Source of the DNA: a virus
Strand: one strand, 5' to 3'
Length of the DNA stretch: 20,308 nt
Virus record (IMG/VR): IMGVR_UViG_3300010334_000363
Coordinates: 1-20,308 of that record
Shown here: piece after piece, positions 2,635 to 18,921 of the stretch
Numbering within the stretch: position 1 is the stretch's first letter
Layout of the letters: each line of letters opens with the position of its first letter
Translations under genes and position numbers: made by a program
The notes under the pieces: model-generated
Database searches by the model: none
The model's input: only the letters and a program-made list of their open reading frames with translations
Told to the model about the DNA's origin: nothing

Positions 2635-3918
2635 TCAGCACTTGGCGTTGCCGCCTTTTTTGTACCCACCGGTGTGGACGACCTGCTTTTCCGTTGGCGC
2701 GGGGCTTACTCCCAGCAGCTTTTTCATGCTGCCAATTGGATCTCGGAAAGCTCTTGCCATCTCCAGCTCGTCTGCTCCCGGCCCGATAGACCGGTCGTAG
2801 GCGCCTTTAGAGGCGTCGACCAAATCGGAATCAACTGAGCCGCCCTTCTTAAATGTACCAGACTGGCGGGTGTTGCTTATGGGCTGCGAGACGAAATGCT
2901 TTGGCATTGCCACGGCGCGGCCAGTGCTAACACTGCCCCCCGTGGCGTAGTGCTTTTTTGCGGCACCGCCTTTTTTCATCGGGTTGGTTAAGCCGCCGGT
3001 TGCGTAGCGCTCATAGCCGGAATCGGCTTTTGAAGTATTGGCTGGGCGATTTTCCCAGTCAACGCTCCCACCTTTTTTCATCGGGTTGGTCAAACCGCCA
3101 GTGGCCATGCCGTTTACGACACCACCGGTTGCGTAGCGCTCGTACCCAGGATTGGTTTTCTTGCGCTCCATCTTGGTCTTGGCAAAAGCGCTTTCATTGC
3201 CTTCCACGGTGCCGCCAGCGGCATAGCGCTCGTAACCTGGGTCAGTTGCTTTGCGCTCCATCTTGGTCTTGGCAAAAGTGCTTTCGTTGCCCTTTACGGT
3301 GGTCTTGTCCATTGCGGTGTCAATGGCCGCACCAGAGACCTTGCCGCCGGTCTTCATGCCGTTGGTCACGCCGCCCGTGGCCAGCTTGAGCTTGGTACCC
3401 TTGCCGCCCTTGTGCTCCTGCGCGTCGTGCTGTTTGAAGGCCTTGGCCAGCATGGCCTTGTCTTGGGCCTTGTCGTCAGCTTTGCCGCCCTTCTTCATGG
3501 CGGGCATACCTGGGGCAGCCATACGTGCTGCGGGGGCCGCCATCGCAGGAGCGCCCATAGCGGCCTTGCGGGCCATCATGGCCTTGAGCATAGCCGCCTT
3601 GCGTGGGTCCATGGGGGCCGCCGCCATTGCTGGCGCGCCCATAATGCCGCCCATGGCCTTCTTCTCAACCTTGCCGCCTTTTTTGGAGTTCAGCAGGGCG
3701 CCGGACATGGCCTTGCGGCGATCCGACATCGAAGGTTTCTTGGGAGACTCGCCGTCTTCGCAAGCCTCTTCATTGCCACCCTTCATGAAGTTTTTACCCT
3801 TCATGTTGGTGTGGCCGTTGTCATCCTTGTCCATCGCGACGTGCCCGCCCTTTTTCAGCTTCAGAATCACCGAAGGCTCGGTGGTCTCCATCTTCACCAT
3901 TGGTTTAAATTGGCCCAT
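2635..3918 (-). CDS. Lys/Gly-rich KGG-repeat protein
   Basis: This gene encodes 427 aa. ATG at 3918 has a strong AAGGAG SD that overlaps the stop of the preceding gene. The protein is basic and low-complexity. It contains many KGG units (for example residues 22-25, 79-82, 142-144, 281-284, 315-318, 358-360, 420-423) and A-[TA]-G-G-x-[VT] units (near 180, 233, 263, 272, 307, 325). Residues 93-144 are Met/Ala/Pro-rich, with MGAPAMAA occurring twice. Residues 210-239 and 240-269 are a tandem 30-residue duplication. The last 65 residues look more ordinary. It lies at the end of the main structural operon, just before the terminator. The basic repeats would suit DNA binding or packing inside the capsid, or a multivalent binding partner, but this is inference. 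The function is unknown. Confidence 0.88.
   Translation of the reverse strand: MGQFKPMVKMETTEPSVILKLKKGGHVAMDKDDNGHTNMKGKNFMKGGNEEACEDGESPKKPSMSDRRKAMSGALLNSKKGGKVEKKAMGGIMGAPAMAAAPMDPRKAAMLKAMMARKAAMGAPAMAAPAARMAAPGMPAMKKGGKADDKAQDKAMLAKAFKQHDAQEHKGGKGTKLKLATGGVTNGMKTGGKVSGAAIDTAMDKTTVKGNESTFAKTKMERKATDPGYERYAAGGTVEGNESAFAKTKMERKKTNPGYERYATGGVVNGMATGGLTNPMKKGGSVDWENRPANTSKADSGYERYATGGLTNPMKKGGAAKKHYATGGSVSTGRAVAMPKHFVSQPISNTRQSGTFKKGGSVDSDLVDASKGAYDRSIGPGADELEMARAFRDPIGSMKKLLGVSPAPTEKQVVHTGGYKKGGNAKC
3112..3291 (-). repeat. Two-copy 90-bp tandem repeat inside the KGG-repeat gene
   Basis: Two adjacent 90-bp units (3202-3291 and 3112-3201) encode 30-residue copies that begin GNES[TA]FAKTKMERK and end PGYERYA[AT]GG plus three residues. 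The copies differ at only a few codons. A truncated third copy of the GYERYATGGL end recurs near residues 301-310. The period is an exact number of codons, so the reading frame is preserved. Confidence 0.9.
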
Positions 3919-3928
3919 GATCTACTCC

Positions 3929-4891
3929 TTACGCTTGAGTTACGCCAAGAGCACCAACGCGGGTTGCGTTGGGGCCGACTGCGATAGCGGGCAGCAGGAT
4001 GCCCATCGTCGTGCGGACAATGCCATCCGAAGCTGTGGCAGGGGTATACGTGCCGCGAACGTCGCCGGTGCCGGTGGTAGCGGTAGCGGTGTCTGCAGCA
4101 ACAAAGGTTCCGGCGTCTTGCGCCAAGGTGTTGTTGGACTTTACGCTGGCCACGTAGGACACGTTGAACACGCGGACCGGAAGGCCCAGAACGTCACTGG
4201 TACCAACCACAACAGCAGTTGCGGAGCCAGCAATGGTCACGCTAGAGACTTGGTAGAAAGCCTTCTTGCCAGTGACTGCCGTACCCGCAACGGTAACGGT
4301 GATGACCTCGCTCATGGCTTGGCCGTAGTAGTCGTAGCCAGAAACGGTGAACGCGCGGGCCGTAGTAGAACCGTTCACCTTAACTGCGCGGGGCAGGTCC
4401 AACTGCAGCACGGTCGTGCCGTCGGTGCGAACCACAGACTTTACAGAGGTGCCAGCAGTCAACGTCAAAGCGCCAGCGGCAGCAGGTGCTTGCGATGCGG
4501 CAATGTTGTTGGTGACTGCGGCTTGGGGAACAACGTCCCACATAAATATGCGACCAACGGGACCGACGCCAAGATCCATGGGAGACGGGTTGTCAAAGGG
4601 CGTGTTGGCGTGGGCGGTCATCGTGGTGCTAGAAGCAGTCACGGACTGGTTGATGGTGTACGTACCCGTACCGCCATTGCCAGTAACAAACGCGGTGATA
4701 TACGTGCCGTCGGTCACGCTTGAACCGTCAACGTACATGCCCAAAACAATTGGGTTACCAGACAACAAGGCCGTGACGGTCAAGGTCGTTCCCGACATTG
4801 AGCCGGTAAAAGTGTTGCTGTATGGGCGAAGTCCGGTGCCCATGTAGGTTTGGGCCGGGCCGAGAAATAGATCGTCTGCAAATGATGGCAT
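3929..4891 (-). CDS. Beta-rich virion structural protein with an inserted repeat module
   Basis: This gene encodes 320 aa. ATG at 4891 has SD AAGGAG 7 nt upstream. The N-terminus MPSFADDLFLGPAQTYMGTG and the segment NPSPMDLGVGPVGRIFMWDVVP (around 101-122) form a framework. Between them, residues about 26-93 are a Thr/Gly/Ser beta module ending GGTGTYTINQSVTASSTTMTA, a type found inserted in many phage structural proteins. The rest is Ala/Val/Thr-rich, with further strands (RAFTVSGYDYYGQ, SEVITVTVAGTAVTG) and no cysteines. Lying between the capsid gene (with HNH insertion) and the KGG protein, it is probably a head decoration, head-fibre or tail-associated subunit. The exact role is not determinable. 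Confidence 0.82.
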   Translation of the reverse strand: MPSFADDLFLGPAQTYMGTGLRPYSNTFTGSMSGTTLTVTALLSGNPIVLGMYVDGSSVTDGTYITAFVTGNGGTGTYTINQSVTASSTTMTAHANTPFDNPSPMDLGVGPVGRIFMWDVVPQAAVTNNIAASQAPAAAGALTLTAGTSVKSVVRTDGTTVLQLDLPRAVKVNGSTTARAFTVSGYDYYGQAMSEVITVTVAGTAVTGKKAFYQVSSVTIAGSATAVVVGTSDVLGLPVRVFNVSYVASVKSNNTLAQDAGTFVAADTATATTGTGDVRGTYTPATASDGIVRTTMGILLPAIAVGPNATRVGALGVTQA

Positions 4892-4920
4892 GGTCTGCTC
4901 CTTGAAAAGTTTGACCGATG

Positions 4921-5589
4921 TTACTTAAATTTCTCCAAGTAGCCAATGGCCGCCTGAAGTGTTGCGGGATCATCCCCGAAAAGTCCAAGAGCTCGATTGC
5001 ATTGTGTGCAAAGTAGCCCCCTGACCTTACCCGTAGTATGACAGTGATCCACCGCCATTGCTATGGTTTTGTTGCGTATCTGCGTTGTCTCTGGCTTGGC
5101 GCAGATAGCGCACACATTGTTCTGTTCGGCAAGAGTTGTACGGTACCATTCAAGCGTAACTTTGTAATTGCGTTTGAGGTCCTGATTCAGATAGTAATCT
5201 GGGTTAGCAAGTCTGGCTTTTTTATGCCACTCTCTCGCGTATTCCTTTTCATCGTCTGAACTAACCCGATTCTCTTTCCAGTAAAAATTGTCCTTTGACC
5301 AAGGTTTGGAGGTATCAGAACGAAACGCGCGAGTTTTGTTTGGTTTAACCCCTACGTCCTCAGCAAACTTCCAAAAATCTTCAAGCCATGTAGCACACAT
5401 GTCTTGCCGGTGGTTTCTTTGCAAGTTGCACCAAGCGGTATACGCTGAATGCTTTTCGCGATTCCCCCAATCGGCAGGACGGGTGTTAACGGGTTCCCCG
5501 TGACGTTGCACTTGCATGTAGTGCTTCCGGCATAAACCTTTAGCAACTACGGGCGCGGTGCAGTTATGAACGTGGCATTTTTCAGGCAT
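4921..5589 (-). CDS. Endonuclease VII-type HNH (free-standing homing-like) endonuclease
   Basis: This gene encodes 222 aa. ATG at 5589 has SD GGAG 7 nt upstream, inside a hairpin arm. The C-terminal half has the recombination endonuclease VII signature: C160-x2-C163, DHCH at 181-184 followed by TTGKVRGLLC, C194-x2-C197, then NRALGLFGDDP and a final helix. The two Cys pairs are expected to bind structural zinc, and the DHCH segment to carry the catalytic histidine and metal ligands. The N-terminus has a second zinc-like set (C5, C10, C20, H23), probably a DNA-binding module. The gene lies between two structural genes and is less G+C-rich than its neighbours, as expected for a mobile homing gene cleaving near the capsid locus. 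A true Holliday-junction resolvase role is possible but less likely here. Confidence 0.9.
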   Translation of the reverse strand: MPEKCHVHNCTAPVVAKGLCRKHYMQVQRHGEPVNTRPADWGNREKHSAYTAWCNLQRNHRQDMCATWLEDFWKFAEDVGVKPNKTRAFRSDTSKPWSKDNFYWKENRVSSDDEKEYAREWHKKARLANPDYYLNQDLKRNYKVTLEWYRTTLAEQNNVCAICAKPETTQIRNKTIAMAVDHCHTTGKVRGLLCTQCNRALGLFGDDPATLQAAIGYLEKFK

Positions 5590-5592
5590 TTG

Positions 5593-5624
5593 TAAACTCC
5601 AAGGTTGCTACACCTTGAAGTTTA
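5593..5624 (-). promoter_or_regulatory. RNA hairpin covering the HNH gene ribosome binding site
   Basis: In the 61-nt gap between the capsid stop and the HNH start, plus-strand arms 5593-5605 and 5612-5624 are inverted repeats separated by 6 nt. The single mismatch (C5599/A5618) becomes a G-U pair in the minus-strand transcript, so the RNA forms a continuous 13-bp stem with a 6-nt loop. The GGAG SD of the HNH gene (plus 5597-5600) is entirely in the 3' arm, 7 nt from the ATG. No U-run follows the stem, so it is not a typical terminator. Hairpins hiding ribosome binding sites are known for T4-type homing endonuclease genes, where they limit translation from read-through transcripts. The same role is inferred here. 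Confidence 0.72.
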
Positions 5625-5650
5625 ACACATACCTGTTTTACACGTCCCCG

Positions 5651-6565
5651 TCAGATACCCGGCGTGCCATAAAGGCAGCGTGGGTCGGTAAATCCGACGT
5701 CATAACGCTCGGTGGCCTTGTAGCGCATCGAGTCAGTTTCAAAGTCACCTTCCATGGTCTTCTCCAGACGACGGCGCATCAAGAGCTTCAAGCCCTCGGG
5801 AGCGTCGGTCTGGACCCACCATGCGTTGGCGCTGGTCAAGCGAGACAACACCGTTGCGCCGCCGTCCAGCAAGCCGATGGACTTGATGGGGTTGACGTCG
5901 TTGTTGGCATTGCCTGCGCGCAGAACCGACTTCAGCAACACTTCCGACTGGAAGACGTTACCGGGAGCCACGACGAGCTGCTTGGGCACCAAACGGATTT
6001 TCTTGCCGTTGTTGTCCACAGCCTGGCGTACTTGGATAAGCATCTGCTCAAGGGAGGTTTGCGAAAGCACAGCAGCGGTGGCCAACTGGTTGCTGAACGT
6101 GCCGTTCACGATGGGGTGAGCGGTGTTGATCAACGACACGCCGTCGCCGCCTGGGTACGAGCTGTTGAAGGCCGTATTCAGAACGTTAGCGGACAGCAGT
6201 TCCTTGGTCTCCACCAACGACTGTGCCAAGTGACGTGCGTACACCTGGCCCAAACGGATGTGGTCGCCGTCTTCCACGAGAACTTTGGTCAAGGCAAAAG
6301 CCAGACCGTAGACCTTGTAGACGTAGCGCTTCAGGAACAGCACGCCACCTTGTTGGTACGTCACCGGTGTGCCGTCAGGCAGTTGGGGTGCCGCGCCGAA
6401 ACCGTACAGGACGGGCTCTTCGTGGTAGTTACGTGGGATACCATCTTCCTCGCGGAAAACACGAGACCATTCGTCGGCGCGCTGGTCGTAAACGCCATCA
6501 AAGCATTCGTTCAAGATTGGTTCAACAATCGAACGAAAGTCCGTACTTCTCATTGGTGCAGCCAT
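5651..6565 (-). CDS. Major capsid protein (HK97 fold)
   Basis: This gene encodes 304 aa. ATG at 6565 has GGGAG upstream. The sequence fits a compact HK97-type coat protein. There is an N-terminal helical segment with MRSTDFRSIVEPILNECF, an extended region around 50-80 that could form the E-loop, and a long helix near 100-135. A P-domain-like stretch RLVPKQLVVAPGN lies at 191-203, followed by QSEVLLKSVL. There is a beta segment AWWVQTDAPEGLK at 248-260, and a C-terminal DFETDSMRYKATERYDVGF (274-292) of the kind shared by Mu-like and related coat proteins. Gene order (portal, scaffold, decoration, capsid) agrees. There is no obvious N-terminal propeptide, which fits a separate scaffold. It builds the icosahedral shell. 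Confidence 0.92.
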   Translation of the reverse strand: MAAPMRSTDFRSIVEPILNECFDGVYDQRADEWSRVFREEDGIPRNYHEEPVLYGFGAAPQLPDGTPVTYQQGGVLFLKRYVYKVYGLAFALTKVLVEDGDHIRLGQVYARHLAQSLVETKELLSANVLNTAFNSSYPGGDGVSLINTAHPIVNGTFSNQLATAAVLSQTSLEQMLIQVRQAVDNNGKKIRLVPKQLVVAPGNVFQSEVLLKSVLRAGNANNDVNPIKSIGLLDGGATVLSRLTSANAWWVQTDAPEGLKLLMRRRLEKTMEGDFETDSMRYKATERYDVGFTDPRCLYGTPGI

Positions 6566-8702: not shown

Positions 8703-9167
8703 TTAAATGTAAGTTCGGAACGACAGCGGGTCGTCGGTGACCTTGGCAATCAACTCGTGATCGTTAAGGGTCATGAATAGCACAGGGTCTTTTTCATCTT
8801 CCCCCGGCACATTGCGCTCCCAACGGTCCCCGCCCCAGCGCGGCACGCGGACGTAGTCCCCAATCTGCGCCCAACTTCCTTCAGGCCATGAGGCCATTGT
8901 GTCTCTGTTTTTGAACGCCAAAGGTCCAATGGCCACGACCTTGCCGATCATGTTGTTCCATTTTTCGTTTTCTTTGGTTTCTGTTGGAAGAATTAACTTA
9001 AAGTGCCCCATATCGACATCTTTTTTAATTCTGCGCAACTGCACGATAACTCGGCCCCCGTAAGGAGCCTGCCCCGGATTTACATCAGGAAACGCTTGCG
9101 CCATTTGATTTGAATCAAACGTTTTTTTACTTCCCTCAATGGTGGGGATTTTTTCTTTCTCGCTCAT
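8703..9167 (-). CDS. GroES-like (co-chaperonin-like) protein
   Basis: This gene encodes 154 aa. ATG at 9167 has SD GATAGGAG 9 nt upstream. After a polar 35-residue N-terminus, the order of segments follows the GroES fold: GGRVIVQLRRIKK (38-49), a loop with GHFKLILPTE (54-63) at the place of the mobile loop, GKVVAIGP (75-82), GSWAQIGDYVRVPRWGGDRWE (97-117) matching the VKVGDRVLFPKYGG strand of co-chaperonins, and a final LFMTLNDHELIAKV (130-143). Phage co-chaperonins such as T4 gp31 replace host GroES so that GroEL can fold the coat protein. Location two genes from the scaffold and near the capsid gene fits that role. Similarity is by pattern only. Key uncertainty: the loop lacks a clear GroEL-binding hydrophobic tripeptide beyond LIL. 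Confidence 0.65.
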   Translation of the reverse strand: MSEKEKIPTIEGSKKTFDSNQMAQAFPDVNPGQAPYGGRVIVQLRRIKKDVDMGHFKLILPTETKENEKWNNMIGKVVAIGPLAFKNRDTMASWPEGSWAQIGDYVRVPRWGGDRWERNVPGEDEKDPVLFMTLNDHELIAKVTDDPLSFRTYI

Positions 9168-18404: not shown

Positions 18405-18921
18405 TTGACTGTCGGGTAAGCGCGATGTTTTTCAGCAGCTCGCCGAACACGTCGAAGCTCACCTCGACGGCCAGGGGGGCTTCCTCGTCACCGGCTACCG
18501 TGGTGCGGTCGCCGTACTTCTTGGGGTGCCAAGCCTTGAGCAGGCGCATGCGTGTGTCGATCTGCAGCTTGCGGTGGCCGAGCATATCCTCCTCGGTCAC
18601 CGTCATGGTGTCTTCGTCTTCGGTCGCGCCGCTGTTGGTTACGATCTTGCGGCCCACGTGCGTGTTGTCAGCGATGTGTAAGGCCTCTTCCGCAAGGATC
18701 TCAAAGCCCACTTCTCTACCGCGCGCGTAGTCTATGGCAAACTGCTTGTCTTGGTCGAGCCAAGCGAAAATTGTCGGATAGCTCGGAAGCCCTTCGCGAC
18801 TCTTGCAGTAATCGCGCAGCGTCTTTCCTTCAGACAGCCACGCCACAATTTCCGCCTTGATCTTTTCCTGTGGGTAAAGCGTGCCACCTGGTGGACGCCC
18901 AACTTTCTTTCCTGTTGCCAT
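18397..18921 (-). CDS. terS: Terminase small subunit
   Basis: This gene encodes 174 aa. ATG at 18921 has SD TAAGGAG 7-8 nt upstream. The N-terminal helix-turn-helix region reads AEIVAWLSEGKTLRDYCK and YPTIFAWLDQDKQFAIDYARGRE (about 23-70). The core has ILAEEALHIADN and, after an acidic loop (100-112), HRKLQIDTRMRLLKAWHPKKYGDR (116-139), the signature of Sf6 gp1-like small terminases. It recognises the packaging site and loads the large subunit, whose gene it overlaps. A hairpin spans its own SD (18926-18958), suggesting translational control. The packaging site itself, often in or near this gene, cannot be located by eye. Confidence 0.9.
   Translation of the reverse strand: MATGKKVGRPPGGTLYPQEKIKAEIVAWLSEGKTLRDYCKSREGLPSYPTIFAWLDQDKQFAIDYARGREVGFEILAEEALHIADNTHVGRKIVTNSGATEDEDTMTVTEEDMLGHRKLQIDTRMRLLKAWHPKKYGDRTTVAGDEEAPLAVEVSFDVFGELLKNIALTRQSSE

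Follow-up and report, generated by a model that had tools for sequence, protein, structure and literature searches.

How can an endonuclease gene that stands directly behind a phage major capsid gene be expressed when its start site is buried in a stable RNA hairpin? The question arises from a 20-kb virus contig (20,308 nucleotides), referred to here as the window, in which an earlier note had reported a hairpin hiding the ribosome binding site of such a gene. We think it probable, with some room for doubt, that the leader is a two-transcript switch travelling with a mobile endonuclease gene. On long read-through mRNA from the capsid gene, the hairpin would lock both the Shine-Dalgarno (SD) sequence and the AUG, and almost no endonuclease would be made. 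A sigma70-like promoter would share the hairpin's DNA, with its -10 box forming the base of the 5' arm, so that RNA polymerase would begin close to the loop; the resulting short mRNA, with most of the 5' arm gone, would form no hairpin and would be translated. The sequences themselves show the fold with its conservation and covariation, where the cassette begins and ends, the replacement of a terminator and the enrichment of promoter elements; from these we infer the block on translation, the use of the promoter and its timing.

The hairpin over the endonuclease start

The genes at the locus, and a small hairpin between two of them, are as follows.

5651-6565, minus strand: major capsid protein gene, upstream of the nuclease (PF25209; annotated as major capsid in the relative MW202545)
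4921-5589, minus strand: Endonuclease VII-type (His-Me finger) nuclease of 222 aa, catalytic and zinc residues intact (profile match, conservation)
4892-4916, minus strand: small hairpin ggtcaaacttttcaaggagcagacc covering the next gene's SD, found whether or not the cassette is there
3929-4891, minus strand: next structural gene, tail-fibre-like (annotation by profile)

The earlier note's identification of the neighbour as a major capsid gene agrees with the PF25209 match and with the major-capsid annotation of the related gene in MW202545, a siphovirus. The same capsid gene occurs in Caulobacter phage RW, whose annotation shows no endonuclease after it, and the leader DNA had no match among isolated phages. 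The nuclease had been described as an HNH homing-like endonuclease; its N-terminal segment is indeed HNH-type and zinc-finger-like, and its class proper is Endonuclease VII, with a score of 82.9 bits against PF02945 (curated cut-off 23.6) and PHROG matches to endonuclease VII families. Residues C160, C163, D181, H182, H184, C194, C197 and N198 are invariant among 24 sequences and make up the D-H-x-H ... N motif and two zinc-binding CxxC pairs. The nearest solved chains by sequence are Hpy99I (2.7e-11, the best PDB match, to the catalytic domain) and T4 endonuclease VII structures (7e-6); Hpy99I and T4 endonuclease VII are also the top-ranked folds for the predicted model (pTM 0.47), as weak matches with E of 8e-3 and worse and TM of about 0.2.

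The hairpin and its parts are:

5583-5635, minus strand: full RNA hairpin, comprising inner stem, 6-nt loop and an outer stem that pairs the AUG (fold z-score, compensatory changes in relatives)
5612-5624, minus strand: 5' arm; TAAACT at its base doubles as the proposed -10 box (fold, promoter scoring)
5606-5611, minus strand: 6-nt loop GUAGCA; transcription is predicted to begin at the loop's 5' edge, near 5612
5594-5605, minus strand: 3' arm, containing the SD (fold)
5597-5600, minus strand: SD sequence GGAG, 7 nt before the AUG and wholly within the 3' arm (sequence)

When minus-strand RNA 5651-5570 was folded, the hairpin was both the minimum free energy and the centroid structure (-33.5 kcal/mol, z -5.67), and none of 200 dinucleotide shuffles reached its stability. 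The note had described a 13-bp stem with one G-U pair, a 6-nt loop and a GGAG SD lying entirely in the 3' arm. This observation is confirmed: the inner stem (5623-5612 with 5605-5594) has 12 bp including one U-G, a 13th U-A pair is possible, and the SD at 5600-5597 has an unpaired probability of 0.00 in the long RNA. Beyond what had been noted, an outer helix of CAGGUAU (5635-5629) with AUGCCUG (5589-5583) pairs the start codon too (AUG, 5589-5587). No known RNA family in Rfam matched in the window.

The cost of opening the ribosome site (-16 to +6) was computed for 17 window genes. The endonuclease start was the most costly at 24.7 kcal/mol, and the other 16 spanned 3 to 15.5 kcal/mol, most of them 3-9; the second-highest value, 15.5 kcal/mol, belongs to the start of TerS (small terminase) at 18921. 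Long-RNA opening costs at the relatives' endonuclease starts averaged 21.2 kcal/mol (33 leaders), compared with 8.5 +/- 2.5 kcal/mol for capsid-gene starts (n=133).

Scans of viral contigs gave at least 80 relatives of the capsid gene and 47 endonuclease loci, to which genome contigs added one full-length locus. A hairpin covers the start in all 43 full-length endonuclease relatives, which have about 33 distinct leaders and protein identities as low as 48%; L206, L207, L208 and L210 are distant, partial matches and lie outside this set. Every full-length endonuclease with upstream sequence stands directly behind the same capsid gene, its start codon about 55-75 nt from the capsid stop. This includes the one full-length relative from bacterial genomes, on a 6.5-kb metagenome-assembled contig, which is probably phage because it adjoins the same capsid gene. 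Stem sequence, stem length and loop differ widely among relatives. With the leaders clustered at 70% identity, the fold z-score was below -2 in 21 of the 23 clusters (mean -4.9; exceptions L086 and L107).

Compensatory changes in relatives, proposed earlier as a check on the hairpin, are present. Among the eight closest leaders, 99% of cells are paired and four pairs have changed on both sides; covariation was 0.327 against a shuffled mean of 0.197 (0/500), and registers slid along the alignment gave at most 0.154. A set of ten leaders (A4) gave 0.289 against 0.201 (0/500) and a more divergent set of eight gave 4/500 shuffles, the shuffles throughout being uncorrected for kinship, for which the slid-register controls correct in part. 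The stems with their compensatory changes, together with the match to published cases, support the note's interpretation of a T4-type control that hides the SD, and the predicted lock on the start site appears well supported by sequence.

Empty loci have hairpins at this intergenic site as well, including the small one over the next gene's SD, which would be expected if the structure were a chance palindrome or an ordinary trait of the site. The hairpin over the endonuclease start differs from the next gene's in sequence, is far more stable (24.7 versus 7.3 kcal/mol to open) and is absent from a near-isogenic empty site; shuffles do not match its stability, and the covariation refutes a chance palindrome. 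We regard this explanation as scarcely credible. The small hairpin itself (ggtcaaacttttcaaggagcagacc or a variant such as cctgagtggttcaagccacaagg) is kept in the window and in most empty loci (L002-L080), with a modest mean opening cost of 6.8 kcal/mol at the next gene's start. Six annotated Endonuclease VII genes of other phages have no hairpin like that over the endonuclease start and cost 7-14 kcal/mol to open, which rules the hairpin out as a general trait of the class.

A candidate promoter in the hairpin DNA

The promoter-like elements of the window leader are:

5619-5627, minus strand: proposed extended -10 element TGT-TAAACT, the highest-scoring promoter-like site in the leader (p 0.026 relative to the remainder of the contig)
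5643-5648, minus strand: weak -35-like hexamer GGGACG with an 18-nt spacer, poor in the window

Sites were scored with published sigma70 base frequencies, and this sigma factor may not be the one the host uses. The window's p value comes from the extended -10, despite the poor -35; a simple promoter scanner found no site in the window's hairpin, because it demands 9 of 12 matches. Most relatives have good -35 hexamers. Leaders aligned by eye show a hexamer resembling TTGACA, TTGTAA or TTGTGA 16-17 nt before TAAACT, TAAAAT, TATACT or TATATT, and the latter hexamer coincides with the bottom of the 5' arm (for example TTGACA-17-TATATT in L110 and TTGACA-16-TAAAAT in L112). In 21 of 23 clusters the best-scoring site has this register, its -10 beginning between -42 and -33. 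The chance rate is 0.186, and the resulting p of about 8e-14 measures pattern strength rather than a blind test, since the register was spotted by eye before scoring. Promoter scores reach p < 0.05 against their own locus in 20/23 clusters (L086, L107 and L203 have no good promoter), and, as kinship makes the sequences non-independent, these p values are optimistic. Pairing, in the case of TAAACT with the SD spacer, dictates part of the -10 hexamer, and the -35 was therefore scored separately, with the hairpin held fixed and the upstream segment shuffled; at the correct spacing its z was 9.5 in the sense direction and 2.9 in the antisense control. Selection on the 5' arm and -10 box beyond pairing was suggestive and not significant (9 wins, 3 losses, p 0.15).

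The predicted start, about 7 nt behind the -10, is at or near the loop. An RNA beginning there loses at least 79% of the stem pairs in 23/23 clusters and retains the SD in every cluster except L203. The mean opening cost falls accordingly from 21.2 to 5.2 kcal/mol (33 leaders), and that of the window leader from 24.7 to 4.0 kcal/mol. A promoter positioned so that short transcripts would miss the hairpin's 5' arm is a well-supported signature across relatives. The claim for the window's own promoter leans largely on these relatives and, within the window itself, seems moderately supported.

The stem could instead act by silencing alone, holding the endonuclease very low on read-through mRNA, with occasional synthesis through breathing or rare ribosome entry and no internal promoter. 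In the window, conservation and covariation of the hairpin do outweigh the promoter signal. This account nevertheless leaves aside the correctly spaced -35 of most relatives and the best-scoring site in register, and with 20 kcal/mol or more needed to open the start, almost no expression would be expected unless a second transcript existed. We consider it unlikely, and favor a switch between two transcripts.

Mismatched internal loops are kept in the stem of one subgroup (L090, L094, L087, L089 and L112), where TAAAAT of the 5' arm faces AGATTA; full pairing would spoil the -10 box. These mismatches may be due to two constraints acting together or to binding of a protein. Their retention in L090, L094, L087 and L112 is in line with an operator to which the endonuclease binds, as RNA or cruciform DNA, in regulating its own synthesis, and enzymes of the Endonuclease VII class bind branched nucleic acid. 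The stem's sequence, length and loop vary so much, however, that the fold alone would be recognisable; autoregulation of this kind seems to us very improbable.

The cassette and its site

The unit that carries the proposed switch is:

4923-5648, minus strand: cassette of promoter/hairpin leader plus nuclease, not present in L114, a near-isogenic locus

Identity between L114 and the window is 98.3% across the 2.9 kb that end at 5649, and 94.7% beginning at 4922, with no endonuclease in L114; in place of the gene are about 48 nt holding GGCGGGGGGCCTTAATCCCCCGCC, a terminator-like hairpin. As L114 is empty and near-isogenic, leader and gene were gained or lost together, a unit of about 726 bp. 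Occupied and empty alleles of one site thus occur in close relatives (the window and L114), a pattern expected of homing endonucleases. In a tree built from 140 capsid genes the cassette switches between present and absent 16 times, with at least 12 of these changes forced by well-supported branches, a patchiness that fits homing or repeated loss, the counts giving no direction. We infer that the nuclease gene moves by homing.

Because the cassette stands where L114 has a terminator-like hairpin, its own hairpin might be a substitute transcription terminator for the capsid operon. A stem followed by at least 4 U in 8 lies behind the capsid gene in 82 of 102 distinct empty loci in which the next gene is retained, versus 5 of 35 occupied ones, a count on which we reject a terminator for most members. 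The tail of the window's stem has 1 U in 8, short of the GC stem plus U-tract of an intrinsic terminator, and a terminator needs neither an SD in its stem nor covariation around the SD. One clade, with leaders L098, L099, L100 and L195, does have an SD-bearing stem with at least seven U directly between it and the AUG; with such a tail the element could terminate too, and in these leaders it could be SD lock, promoter and intrinsic terminator at once. As an explanation of the hairpin in general, termination is a distant prospect, and a lock with its own promoter is preferred.

A more speculative proposal, which we think rather unlikely, is that the structure-selective, Endonuclease VII-type homing nuclease targets the inverted repeat of the capsid-gene terminator and swaps this palindrome, its landing site, for its own promoter-hairpin of about 50 bp, which in one clade would have become a terminator again. 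In L024 the position behind the capsid gene is taken by a different gene, HNH-like and 159 aa long (3913-4445), with the terminator kept, no clear SD and no hairpin over its start. The site therefore seems to attract nuclease genes.

Relation to known systems

Sequestration of the SD in a stable hairpin on long transcripts, as found here, is a feature of T4-type control. Edgell, Gibb and Belfort (PMC2988022) describe the same arrangement in I-TevI, I-TevII, I-TevIII, T4 segB and Aeh1 mobE, where late promoters give transcripts too short for the structure that hides the SD; a second review cites T4 e, soc, 49 and I-TevI for an SD and/or AUG held in a helix (PMC3014915). I-TevI, I-TevII and I-TevIII resemble the present case in that a stable hairpin hides the SD on long transcripts and short ones escape (PMC2988022), but they belong to group I introns and use T4 late promoters, whereas here the gene is free-standing, the promoter sigma70-like and the nuclease of the Endonuclease VII class. 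T4 segB and mobE of Aeromonas phage Aeh1 are, as here, free-standing mobile endonucleases with an SD-sequestering hairpin, and have an I-TevI-style promoter. Going by the reviews (PMC2988022; PMC3014915), these two differ in belonging to T4-like phages, with a tRNA region and ribonucleotide reductase as neighbors, and replacement of a capsid terminator is not described for them, unlike the cassette here.

The leader has no match to the T4 late promoter (TATAAATA) with at most 1 mismatch. The control would act like the T4 version, and appears to be a different one, with sigma70-like elements instead of a T4 late element. The earlier note had suggested independent evolution; the capsid gene is not T4-like, and the hairpin-promoter control probably evolved independently of T4, a likelihood that rests on the absence of detectable similarity.

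T4 gene 49 is a resident phage recombination gene and, given the Endonuclease VII class of the nuclease here, also a precedent. It encodes recombination endonuclease VII, and its SD and/or AUG lies in an inhibitory helix (PMC3014915); it differs in not being a patchy cassette, and the likeness of the leaders is by description only. Hpy99I, a bacterial restriction enzyme, shares the catalytic domain, the match being confined to the C-terminal catalytic part.

Control of this kind is thus already known; the present case differs in the phage group, the sigma70-like promoter and the replacement of a capsid terminator. The reviews describe hairpin control of phage endonuclease genes for T4-like phages only (PMC2988022, PMC3014915). 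Finding it conserved in about 33 divergent leaders of an unrelated (freshwater) phage group, whose leader DNA also contains a host-type promoter, argues for a repeated need of double control, in which selfish nucleases within strong structural-gene operons require a lock and a separate promoter. The natural leader variants are a ready set for studying one sequence as promoter, RNA lock and, in some, terminator. Among the head genes, a GroES-like co-chaperonin gene is present both in the window (8703-9167, minus strand) and in MW202545.
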